Below, one piece after another: positions 1-34,972 of a stretch of 37,287 bases of DNA. The notes beneath the pieces were generated by a model. The model was not told the DNA's origin. It did not search any database and worked only from the letters and a program-made list of their open reading frames with translations. How positions within the stretch are numbered: position 1 is the stretch's first letter; each line of letters opens with the position of its first letter. The stretch covers positions 1 to 37,287 of the forward strand of contig DAIDIE010000005.1 in assembly GCA_027459505.1 (NCBI GenBank), given 5' to 3'. Both the position numbers and the translations under genes were made by a program. Source of the stretch: Acidobacteriota bacterium (GTDB lineage Bacteria; Acidobacteriota; Terriglobia; Terriglobales; SCQP01).

Positions 1-145
1 AGGTGGAGGGCCGCGAAATTCCGAAGGGCGGACCCCTCGCGCGGGAGAGGAGCCCGGCATCGGCGGCTTCACGTTCTCACTGGAGAACGTGCCAGCGACC
101 AACGGGAGCGGGCGGCCTGAAGGAGACGAGGCCGTGCCTCACGAT
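1..145. repeat. Dispersed mosaic repeat, copy A
   Basis: Three blocks here recur elsewhere in the window. Bases 1-18 match 33879-33896. Bases 67-105 match 24949-24989 with one mismatch and one indel. Bases 120-140 match 33896-33916 exactly. Block 2 contains a hairpin with 7-bp arms (CGTTCTC, loop ACTG, GAGAACG) at 72-89. In the 33.9-kb copy, blocks 1 and 3 are directly joined, so about 100 bases including block 2 are absent there. That difference shows a modular element. Open reading frames cross this stretch but have no protein-like features, so 1-466 is judged non-coding. Confidence 0.75.
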
Positions 146-4219: not shown

Positions 4220-4227
4220 CCGCGGGA

Positions 4228-4606
4228 GCGAGCCACCGTGCCTCCCTCCTTGCTCCCCCCGGCTTTCGACGTCATCTTCACGAGCCAGGGCCGAGTCGAA
4301 CTGCTTTCGAGTTCGAAATCGCAGGCCGAAGTCGTAGCGACGGTCCGGGGTTGCCGTTTAGGTCCCGCACCGCTGGCGACGCCCGAGTTCGTCACCAGGC
4401 GAGTCGCTGGCACGGAGAAGAGTGCGGCTTTTTTCAACAGAAAAAGCCGCATGCCGCTGGATTGTAGAAGTGCCTCTTTGTGATGAACTCGGGCTAGTAA
4501 TGCGCGGCCACCATCCGTGAGCTTCGGCCGGGGTCCCCTAGCCGCGCCGCGCGGCTAGGGGTGGGGGCGGACACCGAAGCGGGTGGAATAAAAGCGGCCG
4601 TGCCGC
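4228..4606. repeat. Dispersed mosaic repeat, copy D/E (long form)
   Basis: Several blocks of the repeat family occur here. Bases 4228-4250 resemble 33842-33863. Bases 4288-4330 match 13967-14009 at 41 of 43 positions. Bases 4569-4606 are identical over 38 bases to 14032-14069. In the 14-kb copy the last two blocks are only about 22 bases apart, but here they are 238 bases apart, so this copy is longer or carries an insertion. The extra sequence holds two strong hairpins. One at 4423-4451 has 11-bp arms (TGCGGCTTTTT / AAAAAGCCGCA). One at 4535-4561 has 12-bp arms (CCCCTAGCCGCG, loop CCG, CGCGGCTAGGGG). No convincing gene lies between 4220 and 4783. The rest of that gap, 4607-4783, shows nothing recognisable. 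Confidence 0.75.
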
Positions 4607-13954: not shown

Positions 13955-14069
13955 CCCTACGCGCTAGGGCCGAGTCGAACTGCTTCCGAGTTCAAAATCG
14001 CAGGCCGAAATAAGCCGCGCGGGCGGGGGCCGGACACCGAAGCGGGTGGAATAAAAGCGGCCGTGCCGC
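13955..14069. repeat. Dispersed mosaic repeat, copy F (short form)
   Basis: Bases 13967-14009 match 4288-4330 at 41 of 43 positions, and 14032-14069 are identical to 4569-4606 over 38 bases. A small hairpin (GCCCTA, loop CGCGC, TAGGGC) at 13955-13971 leads into the first block. The element occupies the gap between the lone receiver gene and the end of the ammonium channel gene. Since the channel gene runs leftward into it, the hairpin may also help end that transcript. Confidence 0.8.
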
Positions 14070-24805: not shown

Positions 24806-24948
24806 AGCAGGAAACACACGCCCACTCGTTCCCCGGCTGGGCATCCCGCGGCTTCCCGGGGCGGGCAGGTTCCAGTGCGAGTCTTCGAGCAAACGGAAGT
24901 ATCAATTTTACACTCCCATTGGAGCCAGACCCCGAGTCCTCATCACCA

Positions 24949-24989
24949 GCTTCACGGTCTCACTGGAGAACGTGCCAGCGACCCAACGG
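24949..24989. repeat. Dispersed mosaic repeat, copy C
   Basis: This stretch matches 67-105 with one mismatch and one indel, including the small hairpin around CACTGGAGAA. Downstream, to about 25035, there is a looser match to block 3 (GACGGGCCGTGCCTC compared with GACGAGGCCGTGCCTC). The element fills the gap between pyk and trmFO, which are divergent, so their promoters must lie in or around it. Confidence 0.7.
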
Positions 24990-25072
24990 AAAGCAATGCC
25001 GGCGGCCGGCTCAGCAGACGGGCCGTGCCTCTCCGCGCCGCCAACGCTCATTCCCCCCTGCCATAATGAAGC

Positions 25073-26624: not shown

Positions 26625-26812
26625 CCTTCCATCCCCCCTGCCTCCTTCGACCCGGCCTCCCGGCGTATCGCCACTCTCTACAGACAACTGACAACCGGCA
26701 ACTGTCAACTCTCCTTCCATCCCCCCTGCCTCCTTCGACACGGCCTCCGGCGTACCGCCACTCCCTACAGACAACTGACAACCGGCAACTGTCAACTCCC
26801 CTGCTGTCAACT
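26625..26812. repeat. Tandem 87/88-bp repeat containing heptamer arrays
   Basis: Two nearly identical copies (about 26625-26712 and 26713-26799) lie head to tail, with a partial remnant to 26812. Each copy ends in four 7-bp units of the form GNCAACT/C (26683-26710 and 26770-26797). Bases 26807-26809 form the stop codon of the moaD-moaE gene, which reads in from the right, so the repeat array abuts that coding end. The remainder of the gap from trmFO, 26540-26624, shows no gene. Confidence 0.8.
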
Positions 26813-32967: not shown

Positions 32968-34269
32968 ATGCCAGACGCCAACGATTGCTTTGCGCGCAGT
33001 CTGCATCACCTCACCCGCAAGGTCCGCCCCGGTGAGCCTTTCGAGCCCAGCATCGTCCCTGCCAGCATTTATCACCTCGCCGGCGAGCCCAGCGGCAGGT
33101 ACCAATATGGCCGCTGGACCAATCCCACCTGGGACGCACTCGAGGAGGCGCTCGCCATCATCGAAGACGCTGGAGCGGTGATTTTTCCTTCCGGCATGGC
33201 GGCAATTGCGGCGCTCCTCTATTCCCACCTCAAGCCGGGTGACCGCCTGTTGTTGCCCTCTGACGGCTATTACTCTACCCGCGCCTGGGCGGAGAAATAC
33301 CTCGTTCCCTTTGGTGTCAACGTAGACACCTGCGCAACCGTTGACTTCCCCGCCCGTGATCTTACTGGATACCGTCTCGTCTGGGTCGAGACGCCCTCCA
33401 ATCCTGGTCTGCACATTTGCGACATCCGCGCCGTCGCGGAGAAGGCCCGCCAAGCGGGCGCGCTGCTGGTGGCCGATAACACGACCATGACCCCGTTGGG
33501 ACAGCGTCCCCTGGACCTGGGCGCGGACGCGGTGGTCTACTCCGACACCAAAGCCATGAGCGGCCACTCGGACGTGATCTTCGGCCACGTCGCCTCCCGC
33601 AATGCGGAGCTGCTTGCCGCGGTGGGCGATTGGCGGAAGCTCTCCGGCGCCATCCCTGGCCAGTTCGAAGCCTGGCTGCTGCATCGCAGCCTGCAGACCC
33701 TGGAAGTACGCTTTGACCGCATGTGCCGTAACGCGGAGATCATCGCCGGGCGCCTGGAGGAATTCACAGCGAAACGCGCCCCGGACAAAGCGCCGGAACA
33801 AAGCCCGCAGCCGGCTGCGGAGCACAGCGCGCAACCTCAGAAGCGAGCCACCGAGCCCTCCCTGCGGGAGGAGATCGCAGGTGGAGGGCCGCGAAAAGGA
33901 GACGAGGCCGTGCCTCCTGCCGCCAGATCGGCAAATGCGCCAAAACCGGATTCCGGACACCGGCTTGTGCAGCGCGTGCAGTACCCCGGCCTCGCCTCGC
34001 ATCCCGCGCATGCCATCGCGAAAGCACAGATGCTGCGCTACGGCGTCATGATTGGACTAACCCTGGCGGATAAAGACTCCGCCGAACGCTTTATCAATAG
34101 TTGTGAATTCATTCGTCCCAGCACCAGCTTTGGCGGTGCCCACACCTCCGCGGAGCGCCGTGCCCGCTGGGGCGAAGACGTCGACCAAGGCTTCATCCGC
34201 CTCTCCATAGGCTGCGAACCCACCGAACAACTCTGGAAAGCGATCCAGGAGGCGCTGGCGGTGGCGTAA
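32968..34269 (+). CDS. Cystathionine gamma-synthase/lyase-family PLP enzyme with an internal repeat insertion
   Basis: 433 aa. The fold-type I PLP core is complete: YQYGRWTNPTWDALEEALA, SGMAAIAALLYSHLKPGDRL, VETPSNPGLHICD, ADNTTMTPLGQRPLDLGAD and Schiff-base Lys195 in SDTKAMSGHSD. The C-terminal domain has VQYPGLASHPAHAIAKAQML and IRPSTSFGGAHTSAE. Relatives use sulfur amino acids such as cystathionine, homoserine esters or methionine; the exact reaction is unknown. Between NAEIIAGRLEEF and LVQRVQYPGL, about residues 267-333, lies a low-complexity segment that relatives lack. Its DNA is a copy of the dispersed repeat (33842-33916), inserted in frame. ATG at 32968 with GAGGA upstream is preferred over the GTG at 32911. 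Confidence 0.9.
   Translation: MPDANDCFARSLHHLTRKVRPGEPFEPSIVPASIYHLAGEPSGRYQYGRWTNPTWDALEEALAIIEDAGAVIFPSGMAAIAALLYSHLKPGDRLLLPSDGYYSTRAWAEKYLVPFGVNVDTCATVDFPARDLTGYRLVWVETPSNPGLHICDIRAVAEKARQAGALLVADNTTMTPLGQRPLDLGADAVVYSDTKAMSGHSDVIFGHVASRNAELLAAVGDWRKLSGAIPGQFEAWLLHRSLQTLEVRFDRMCRNAEIIAGRLEEFTAKRAPDKAPEQSPQPAAEHSAQPQKRATEPSLREEIAGGGPRKGDEAVPPAARSANAPKPDSGHRLVQRVQYPGLASHPAHAIAKAQMLRYGVMIGLTLADKDSAERFINSCEFIRPSTSFGGAHTSAERRARWGEDVDQGFIRLSIGCEPTEQLWKAIQEALAVA
33842..33916. repeat. Dispersed mosaic repeat, copy B, inside a coding region
   Basis: 33842-33863 resembles 4228-4250, 33879-33896 matches 1-18, and 33896-33916 is identical to 120-140. A 3-base-loop hairpin (CCTCCC, TGC, GGGAGG) is at 33857-33871. 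The surrounding in-frame insert, by comparison with the enzyme family, covers roughly 33770-33963. Confidence 0.8.
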
Positions 34270-34345: not shown

Positions 34346-34972
34346 TTACGAGCCAGGGCCGAGGCCGCTGACCGGCTTTCGAGAGAACCCCCTGGCCCCC
34401 TTCACGCGTTGAACTGCCACGTACGAACGCCAAACCTTGTGGAGTCGGTTGTCGTTGAATGAGGCAGATGCCCTCCTGATCGTTTTCACGAATGCTTTCG
34501 TGCAGTCAGGTTTACCCCTTCCGCCACTACTGACAAAGATGAAGGTTTGCCCATCCCCATCGACGCAGAACGGCTGGCCCCACTCATCTACCAAAGAGGT
34601 CCGTGTCAGCCCCCGTATTGTTGTACTCAATGCAGGACCGAAGGGCTTAGCGTCAGCAGCGCTTAGGGCTAAAGTCAGGCGAGCCGCGCGCTTCCATGTC
34701 CTAACAAGGAGGTCTCTTTGCTTGGTTACTTGGGGACTCGCCATTTCCTGACCTAAAATGCCAGTGTTACGCTTCCTGAGTGGATAAGCTGGCAATGCGT
34801 CAGGAGCCACAAACAGTGGCGCAAGCGCGGCATCCGCAACGGCCACCGGAGCGATCGCGGGCCACTTCTCGACGCGCGTCTGCCTGTAATAATGCCGCCA
34901 GATGCAGTACGGTGCTACCAGGATCACGCCCGACATAAAAATTGACGCCGATACTGTGGCTCGCTTGTTCAT
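34346..34972 (-). CDS. Membrane-anchored protein with a pseudopilin-like C-terminal motif
   Basis: 208 aa from the ATG at 34972; a TTG at 34987 is an alternative. The N-terminus (MNKRATVSASIFMSGVILVA) is one membrane helix or uncleaved signal. The middle is Ala/Pro-rich. Near the end, LVDEWGQPFCVDGDGQTFIF followed by VSSGGRGKPDCTKA resembles the D-x-WG-x-P/F...SxGxDG segment of GspG-type pseudopilins. No type IV prepilin cleavage site (G-F-T-x-x-E) is present, so it is not an ordinary pseudopilin. The last part overlaps repeat sequence near 34349-34364, so the final residues may be recent additions. It belongs to the region carrying the Rhs fragments. Function unknown. Confidence 0.55.
   Translation of the reverse strand: MNKRATVSASIFMSGVILVAPYCIWRHYYRQTRVEKWPAIAPVAVADAALAPLFVAPDALPAYPLRKRNTGILGQEMASPQVTKQRDLLVRTWKRAARLTLALSAADAKPFGPALSTTIRGLTRTSLVDEWGQPFCVDGDGQTFIFVSSGGRGKPDCTKAFVKTIRRASASFNDNRLHKVWRSYVAVQRVKGARGFSRKPVSGLGPGS

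Follow-up and report, generated by a model that had tools for sequence, protein, structure and literature searches.

Copies of a small dispersed repeat lie in frame within a cystathionine gamma-lyase-like gene and other protein genes of an acidobacterium

Where do the extra residues of a PLP enzyme come from that its relatives do without, and did a dispersed DNA repeat contribute them? The best-known small mobile repeats that enter proteins in frame are those of Rickettsia and Wolbachia, and some cases have come from enterobacteria and neisseriae. A 2024 review calls the same route no more than “conceivable” in other prokaryotes (PMC10969869). Our literature search, incomplete in its coverage, yielded no account of such elements in the phylum Acidobacteriota. 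The window analysed here is a stretch of 37,287 nucleotides, contig 32 of a draft genome of 45 contigs and 4.06 Mb. We consider it probable (roughly 0.87) that a mobile repeat, termed element A, entered several genes of this genome, that its in-frame copies were tolerated and that one of them added 25-26 residues to the window enzyme.

The gene at 32968..34269 (+ strand) is an intact reading frame for a cystathionine gamma-lyase-like PLP enzyme of 433 aa. The protein scores 518.6 bits with NCBIfam NF005758 (cystathionine gamma-lyase, cut-off 440) and matches Pfam PF01053 (5e-72) in two stretches that are split at an insert. The PLP-site residues K195, Y101 and D170 occupy invariant columns of a 38-sequence alignment, the C-terminal domain beyond the insert is conserved, and the frame is open throughout; an intact catalytic core and a continuous reading frame had both been predicted from the sequence alone.

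The insert comprises 64 residues (267-330; 33766..33957, + strand) and is missing in every orthologue and homologue examined, as shown by alignment with L232-L241 and by phmmer against the PDB. The four nearest orthologues found (L232-L235) share 64-67% identity over the large domain and lack the entire 64-residue insert, reading '..RLAEH-KVQQVKFPG' where the window enzyme has 'RLEE-[64 aa]-HRLVQRVQYPG'; they belong to the same class and another family, the search within the own family having yielded only paralogue-level matches for the PLP enzyme. With the PDB homologues, the match is split at 260/264 and 330/334, where about 5 residues face about 69 in the window enzyme. The comparison with relatives that had been proposed as a check thus upheld the insert. 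In an AlphaFold2 model (mean pLDDT 78.9), the core mostly reaches 85-98 and residues 271-330 reach 34-53; the insert lies between helix 245-268 and strand 334-338, and the PLP fold is kept. Since the confidence is high in the core and low in the insert, there is room for the latter as a disordered loop between the large and the C-terminal domain, with the predicted fold intact.

The repeat-derived part of the insert is an internally deleted copy of element A of 78 bp or 26 codons (33839..33916, + strand), which agrees with the consensus at 76 of 78 bases and encodes (Q)KRATEPSLREEIAGGGPRKGDEAVP; the peptide stretch KRATEPSLREEIAGGGPR likewise lies within the insert. The copy fuses 58 bp from the 5' part of the element to 20 bp from the 3' part, and the missing middle amounts to 102 or 111 bp, depending on the length class, either being a multiple of 3. 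The repeat accounts for 25-26 of 64 residues; in nucleotides, its share of the insert is 78 of 192, or about 40%. Upstream of it, a Pro/Ala/Gln-rich part (FTAKRAPDKAPEQSPQPAAEHSAQP-; 33766..33838, + strand) is not repeated in the genome, as the own-genome DNA search returned only itself and weak matches, the best other one being 30 nt at 87%. Downstream, (P)AARSANAPKPDSG (33917..33957, + strand) has no match in 0.5 Mb of own-genome DNA around copies. These other 38-39 residues are unique, disordered sequence with no genome match found, and the search for another repeat in the flanks returned nothing, for the 3' flank within the same 0.5 Mb.

The sequence-only reading had placed the repeat at 33770-33963 and had counted about 65 extra residues between the domains. 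A repeat is indeed present and 64 residues are extra relative to the four orthologues, but the span shrinks to 33839-33916 (78 bp) and the repeat gives only 25-26 residues. The blocks 33879-33896 = 1-18 and 33896-33916 = 120-140, from which the repeat had been recognized, are exact identities, and the 3-base-loop hairpin CCTCCC-TGC-GGGAGG is present as a part of element A. The first 40 bp of 33839-33916 match element A as well; this could not be recognized from the window, because the contig starts inside an element A copy.

Element A is dispersed through the own genome of 4.06 Mb. A scan for both ends in about 0.5 Mb of DNA around copies, which misses those without both searched ends, gave 89 two-ended copies, and there are partial copies besides. 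The usual length is 180 or 189 bp, and the 180- and 189-bp classes, counted without the leading AG in the consensus comparison, show a mean identity to the consensus of about 97%. Longer copies carry additional hairpin modules, and shorter ones are internal deletions. The AGGTGGAGGGCCGCGAAA block has 104 genome matches with up to 2 mismatches (reversed control: 1), the GAGACGAGGCCGTGCCTC block has 133 under the same threshold (reversed control: 0), and the 33-nt 5' end has 88 own-genome matches with up to 3 mismatches (control: 0). These genome-wide counts rule out a chance origin of the blocks and settle the early concern that matching blocks might be few or fortuitous.

Within the window, the contig end truncates a copy (1..140, + strand) that aligns to consensus positions 41-189 (blastn), and several further contigs of the assembly start or stop within a copy. 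An intergenic copy just upstream of trmFO (24921..25031, + strand; blastn, 91%) also carries an internal deletion, consensus 2-22 lying at 24921-24941 and 98-189 at 24941-25031. At 4225..4247 (+ strand), the sequence GGAGCGAGCCACCGTGCCTC is a probable scar, in which the 5' end is followed at once by the last bases of the 3' end (blastn, 91.7% over 24 columns, E 0.002).

No Rfam match up to E 0.5 was obtained for five copy-bearing loci. The RNA fold of element A is no better than that of shuffled sequence (z-score -0.98; 32 of 200 shuffles as good), which rules out a strong selfish palindrome, and the ends AGGAGCGAGCC and GAGGCACGGCC, compared by inspection, are identical at 4 of 11 positions, i.e., they form no terminal inverted repeat. 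Element A would hence be described as a small, non-coding, modular repeat with a core of about 180-190 bp, extended by hairpin modules in longer copies; its dispersion suggests that it is mobile. Diverged repeats that have the core GGCCGCGAAATTCCGNAGGGCGGC in common with element A occur in other genera of the family (G001, G004, G005, G006, G010, G011, G013; L261-L277), and these relatives of one element A segment indicate a wider repeat superfamily in the same family.

An empty site illustrates the probable mode of insertion. An HTH paralogue reads CTCATC/CTGAAT where the occupied gene reads CTCCTG-[189 bp]-CTGAAC, with an equal number of codons and no target duplication, and the ends of 81 copies show no consistent direct repeat; both results rule out a target duplication on insertion. 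In 86 of 89 copies, three variable bases separate the element from a C at the fourth upstream nucleotide, and the conserved 5' bases read C-NNN-AGGAGCGAGCC; the right side of the copies bears no comparable mark. Element A would thus insert 4 bp downstream of a C without target-site duplication, and the one-sided C could either reflect the choice of target or be left over from the element.

When every full copy was read in its surroundings, the secure in-frame insertions came to nine in eight genes, including the window enzyme. A TIGR01777 oxidoreductase (C10:97324-97503) and a ComEC/Rec2 protein (C25:15994-16173) score above their curated cut-offs with the insert in place (225.4 bits over 207.35 and 247.9 over 190.05, respectively). 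A rusticyanin-like cupredoxin carries 222 bp (C9:67169), which its homologue L393 lacks, reading through. Further copies reside in the HTH protein L357, where two occur in two different reading frames (C39:21512 and 21033), in its HTH paralogue L341 (one copy, C31:75792), in a Pro-rich linker protein (C34:164171) and in an acyltransferase (Acyl_transf_3; C10:78693), the C-terminal tail of which reads element A antisense. The HTH family of L357 and L341, which hosts 3 of the 9 in-frame copies, has at least 10 further paralogues in the genome, several of which lie close to the end of a contig or to a Y1 transposase gene. A tenth copy, in the N-terminus of the decarboxylase L351 (C36:53995), is doubtful, as the true start may follow the repeat. 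An antisense copy at C37:145054 breaks a gene by a stop codon. Rejected as in-gene copies were C25:1586 and C34:166048 (chance 18-mers), C9:37649, C25:9134 and C6:1 (upstream of the start codon) and C10:1 (contig edge).

Could the window insert have arisen without element A? An ordinary lineage-specific low-complexity linker, grown by slippage and resembling the repeat by convergence or through a chance block, would account for the 38-39 of 64 Pro/Ala/Gln-rich residues that match nothing else in the genome, and the other in-frame copies are likewise located in Pro-rich disordered stretches. This origin is very unlikely for the insert as a whole, given the near-consensus sequence of the 78 bases, in which the two element ends follow each other correctly, and about 90-130 genome occurrences of the blocks, against which the controls gave next to none; it is refuted for 33839-33916 but could still apply to the flanking residues. 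Even less credible is a mis-assembly from collapsed repeats. The many draft contigs that end in element A copies do suggest that the repeat troubles the assembler, but the gene copy is, at 78 bp, below typical read length, both its flanks belong to the same enzyme, and all eight genes have gene-continuous flanks and a preserved frame. The insertion of element A is the reading we retain: the window copy would have shrunk to 78 bp by losing 102 or 111 bp from its middle, contributing its residues to a lineage-specific insert that would form a disordered loop and leave the fold intact. The longer protein is probably translated. For gmk in Rickettsia, the inserted protein was shown to be made and active (PMC2229807, PMC10969869).

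Element A shares several properties with the Rickettsia palindromic elements (RPEs) and their Wolbachia counterparts, which are small dispersed repeats (about 100-190 bp). RPE copies, too, are found between genes and in frame within several unrelated protein genes, the host gene products keep their domains, and one reading frame recurs. The analogy to RPEs had been drawn from the window sequence; it gains strength from the other in-frame copies within genes, but fold and ends gave no evidence that element A is palindromic. Unlike RPEs, element A lacks a terminal inverted repeat and a significant long stem-loop, a smaller share of its copies, about 10%, is in genes (RPEs: 19 cases within genes, or 'nearly half'; PMC2229807, PMC10969869), and it occurs in another bacterial lineage with a C-N-N-N target mark. 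Accordingly, we do not file it as an RPE; judged by structure, the two are apparently unrelated. Element A works like the in-frame ERIC, Correia and YPAL repeats (PMC2229807, PMC10969869). It is set apart from ERIC, the 107-bp Correia/NEMIS and YPAL by their descriptions, which list terminal inverted repeats and target-site duplications for Correia/NEMIS and ERIC and only the latter for YPAL (PMC2229807), as element A shows neither. The same two features, judged by inspection of the ends as well as by the 81 copies and the equal-length empty HTH site, also distinguish it from classical MITEs.

A relation to REP/BIME elements is conceivable but doubtful. According to this proposal, element A is a REP-like element moved by resident Y1 (RAYT/IS200-type) transposases. 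The REP/BIME-RAYT system likewise comprises high-copy, extragenic, structured repeats without target duplication, the lack of which fits single-strand Y1 transposition together with the one-sided base preference; longer A copies contain additional REP-like hairpin modules, and two Y1_Tnp genes are present in the own genome (L396, C40:8475-8750, and L397, C42:123703-123957), each near a nearly identical HTH/ankyrin-like protein (L390, L391). However, in the flanks as read, these genes are bordered by other hairpins and not by element A or its ends, and REPs are 20-40 bp palindromes with a GTAG/CGTC tag, whereas element A lacks the tag and is far longer (180-190 bp, up to 300 bp in extended copies).

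Are the copies in genes merely tolerated, or do they bring a benefit? Intergenic copies make up 69 of 89, while about 78% of the DNA around copies is coding, as estimated with a simple hexamer gene-caller; thus, insertions into genes were mostly purged or avoided. Most copies would persist between genes, and the minority that landed within genes would owe its survival to an inserted length divisible by 3 and to the scarcity of stop codons in the GC-rich repeat. With random phase and orientation, a random copy keeps the frame open with a probability of 0.38, and about 9-10 frame-preserving copies versus one disruptive copy have a P of about 0.0005-0.006, an in-frame excess that is suggestive only, since the events are few and decayed pseudogenes are missed. 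The stop-free frames in element A correspond to the composition-matched expectation (P 0.41 and 0.84), which rules out that the element is built for coding. The plainest reading would be tolerance of frame-preserving insertions rather than coding design.

Selection of the repeat-encoded peptide for a function (exaptation) would go beyond tolerance. It could draw on one reading frame (E/K-RATE.SLREEIAGGGPR) that is common to five secure in-gene copies, or six with L351, but it appears very improbable, since two other sense frames or strands are used in genes as well (one shared by L296, L331 and L357, and the antisense reading of L294), open frames are as numerous as base composition predicts, the insert is predicted to be disordered, and the window copy lacks its middle. 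Broader in scope, and somewhat less improbable, is the notion that a TSD-free, C-targeted family of mobile repeats serves this lineage as a continuing source of protein segments, where copies decay through internal deletions that preserve the frame and selection retains some of the segments.

The broader implication is that a mobile DNA repeat, present in at least eight protein genes, would lengthen proteins much as in Rickettsia, with a repeat that is apparently unrelated, in a different lineage with a GC-rich genome of 4 Mb. The hosts comprise an amino-acid enzyme, a DNA-uptake protein, a redox protein and putative DNA-binding proteins, and the exact empty site together with the recurring reading frame makes tolerance versus benefit testable.

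The window also contains a second dispersed repeat (ACGAGCCAGGGCCGAG ... GCGGCCGTGCCGC) at 4280-4606, 13959-14069 and 34348-34363. Its ends resemble those of element A, and some A copies are located within or beside it, e.g., at C10:88321 and C9:37649. Finally, an imperfect tandem duplication of about 88 bp, with pieces that are 95-97% identical, occupies intergenic DNA after trmFO (26625-26802).
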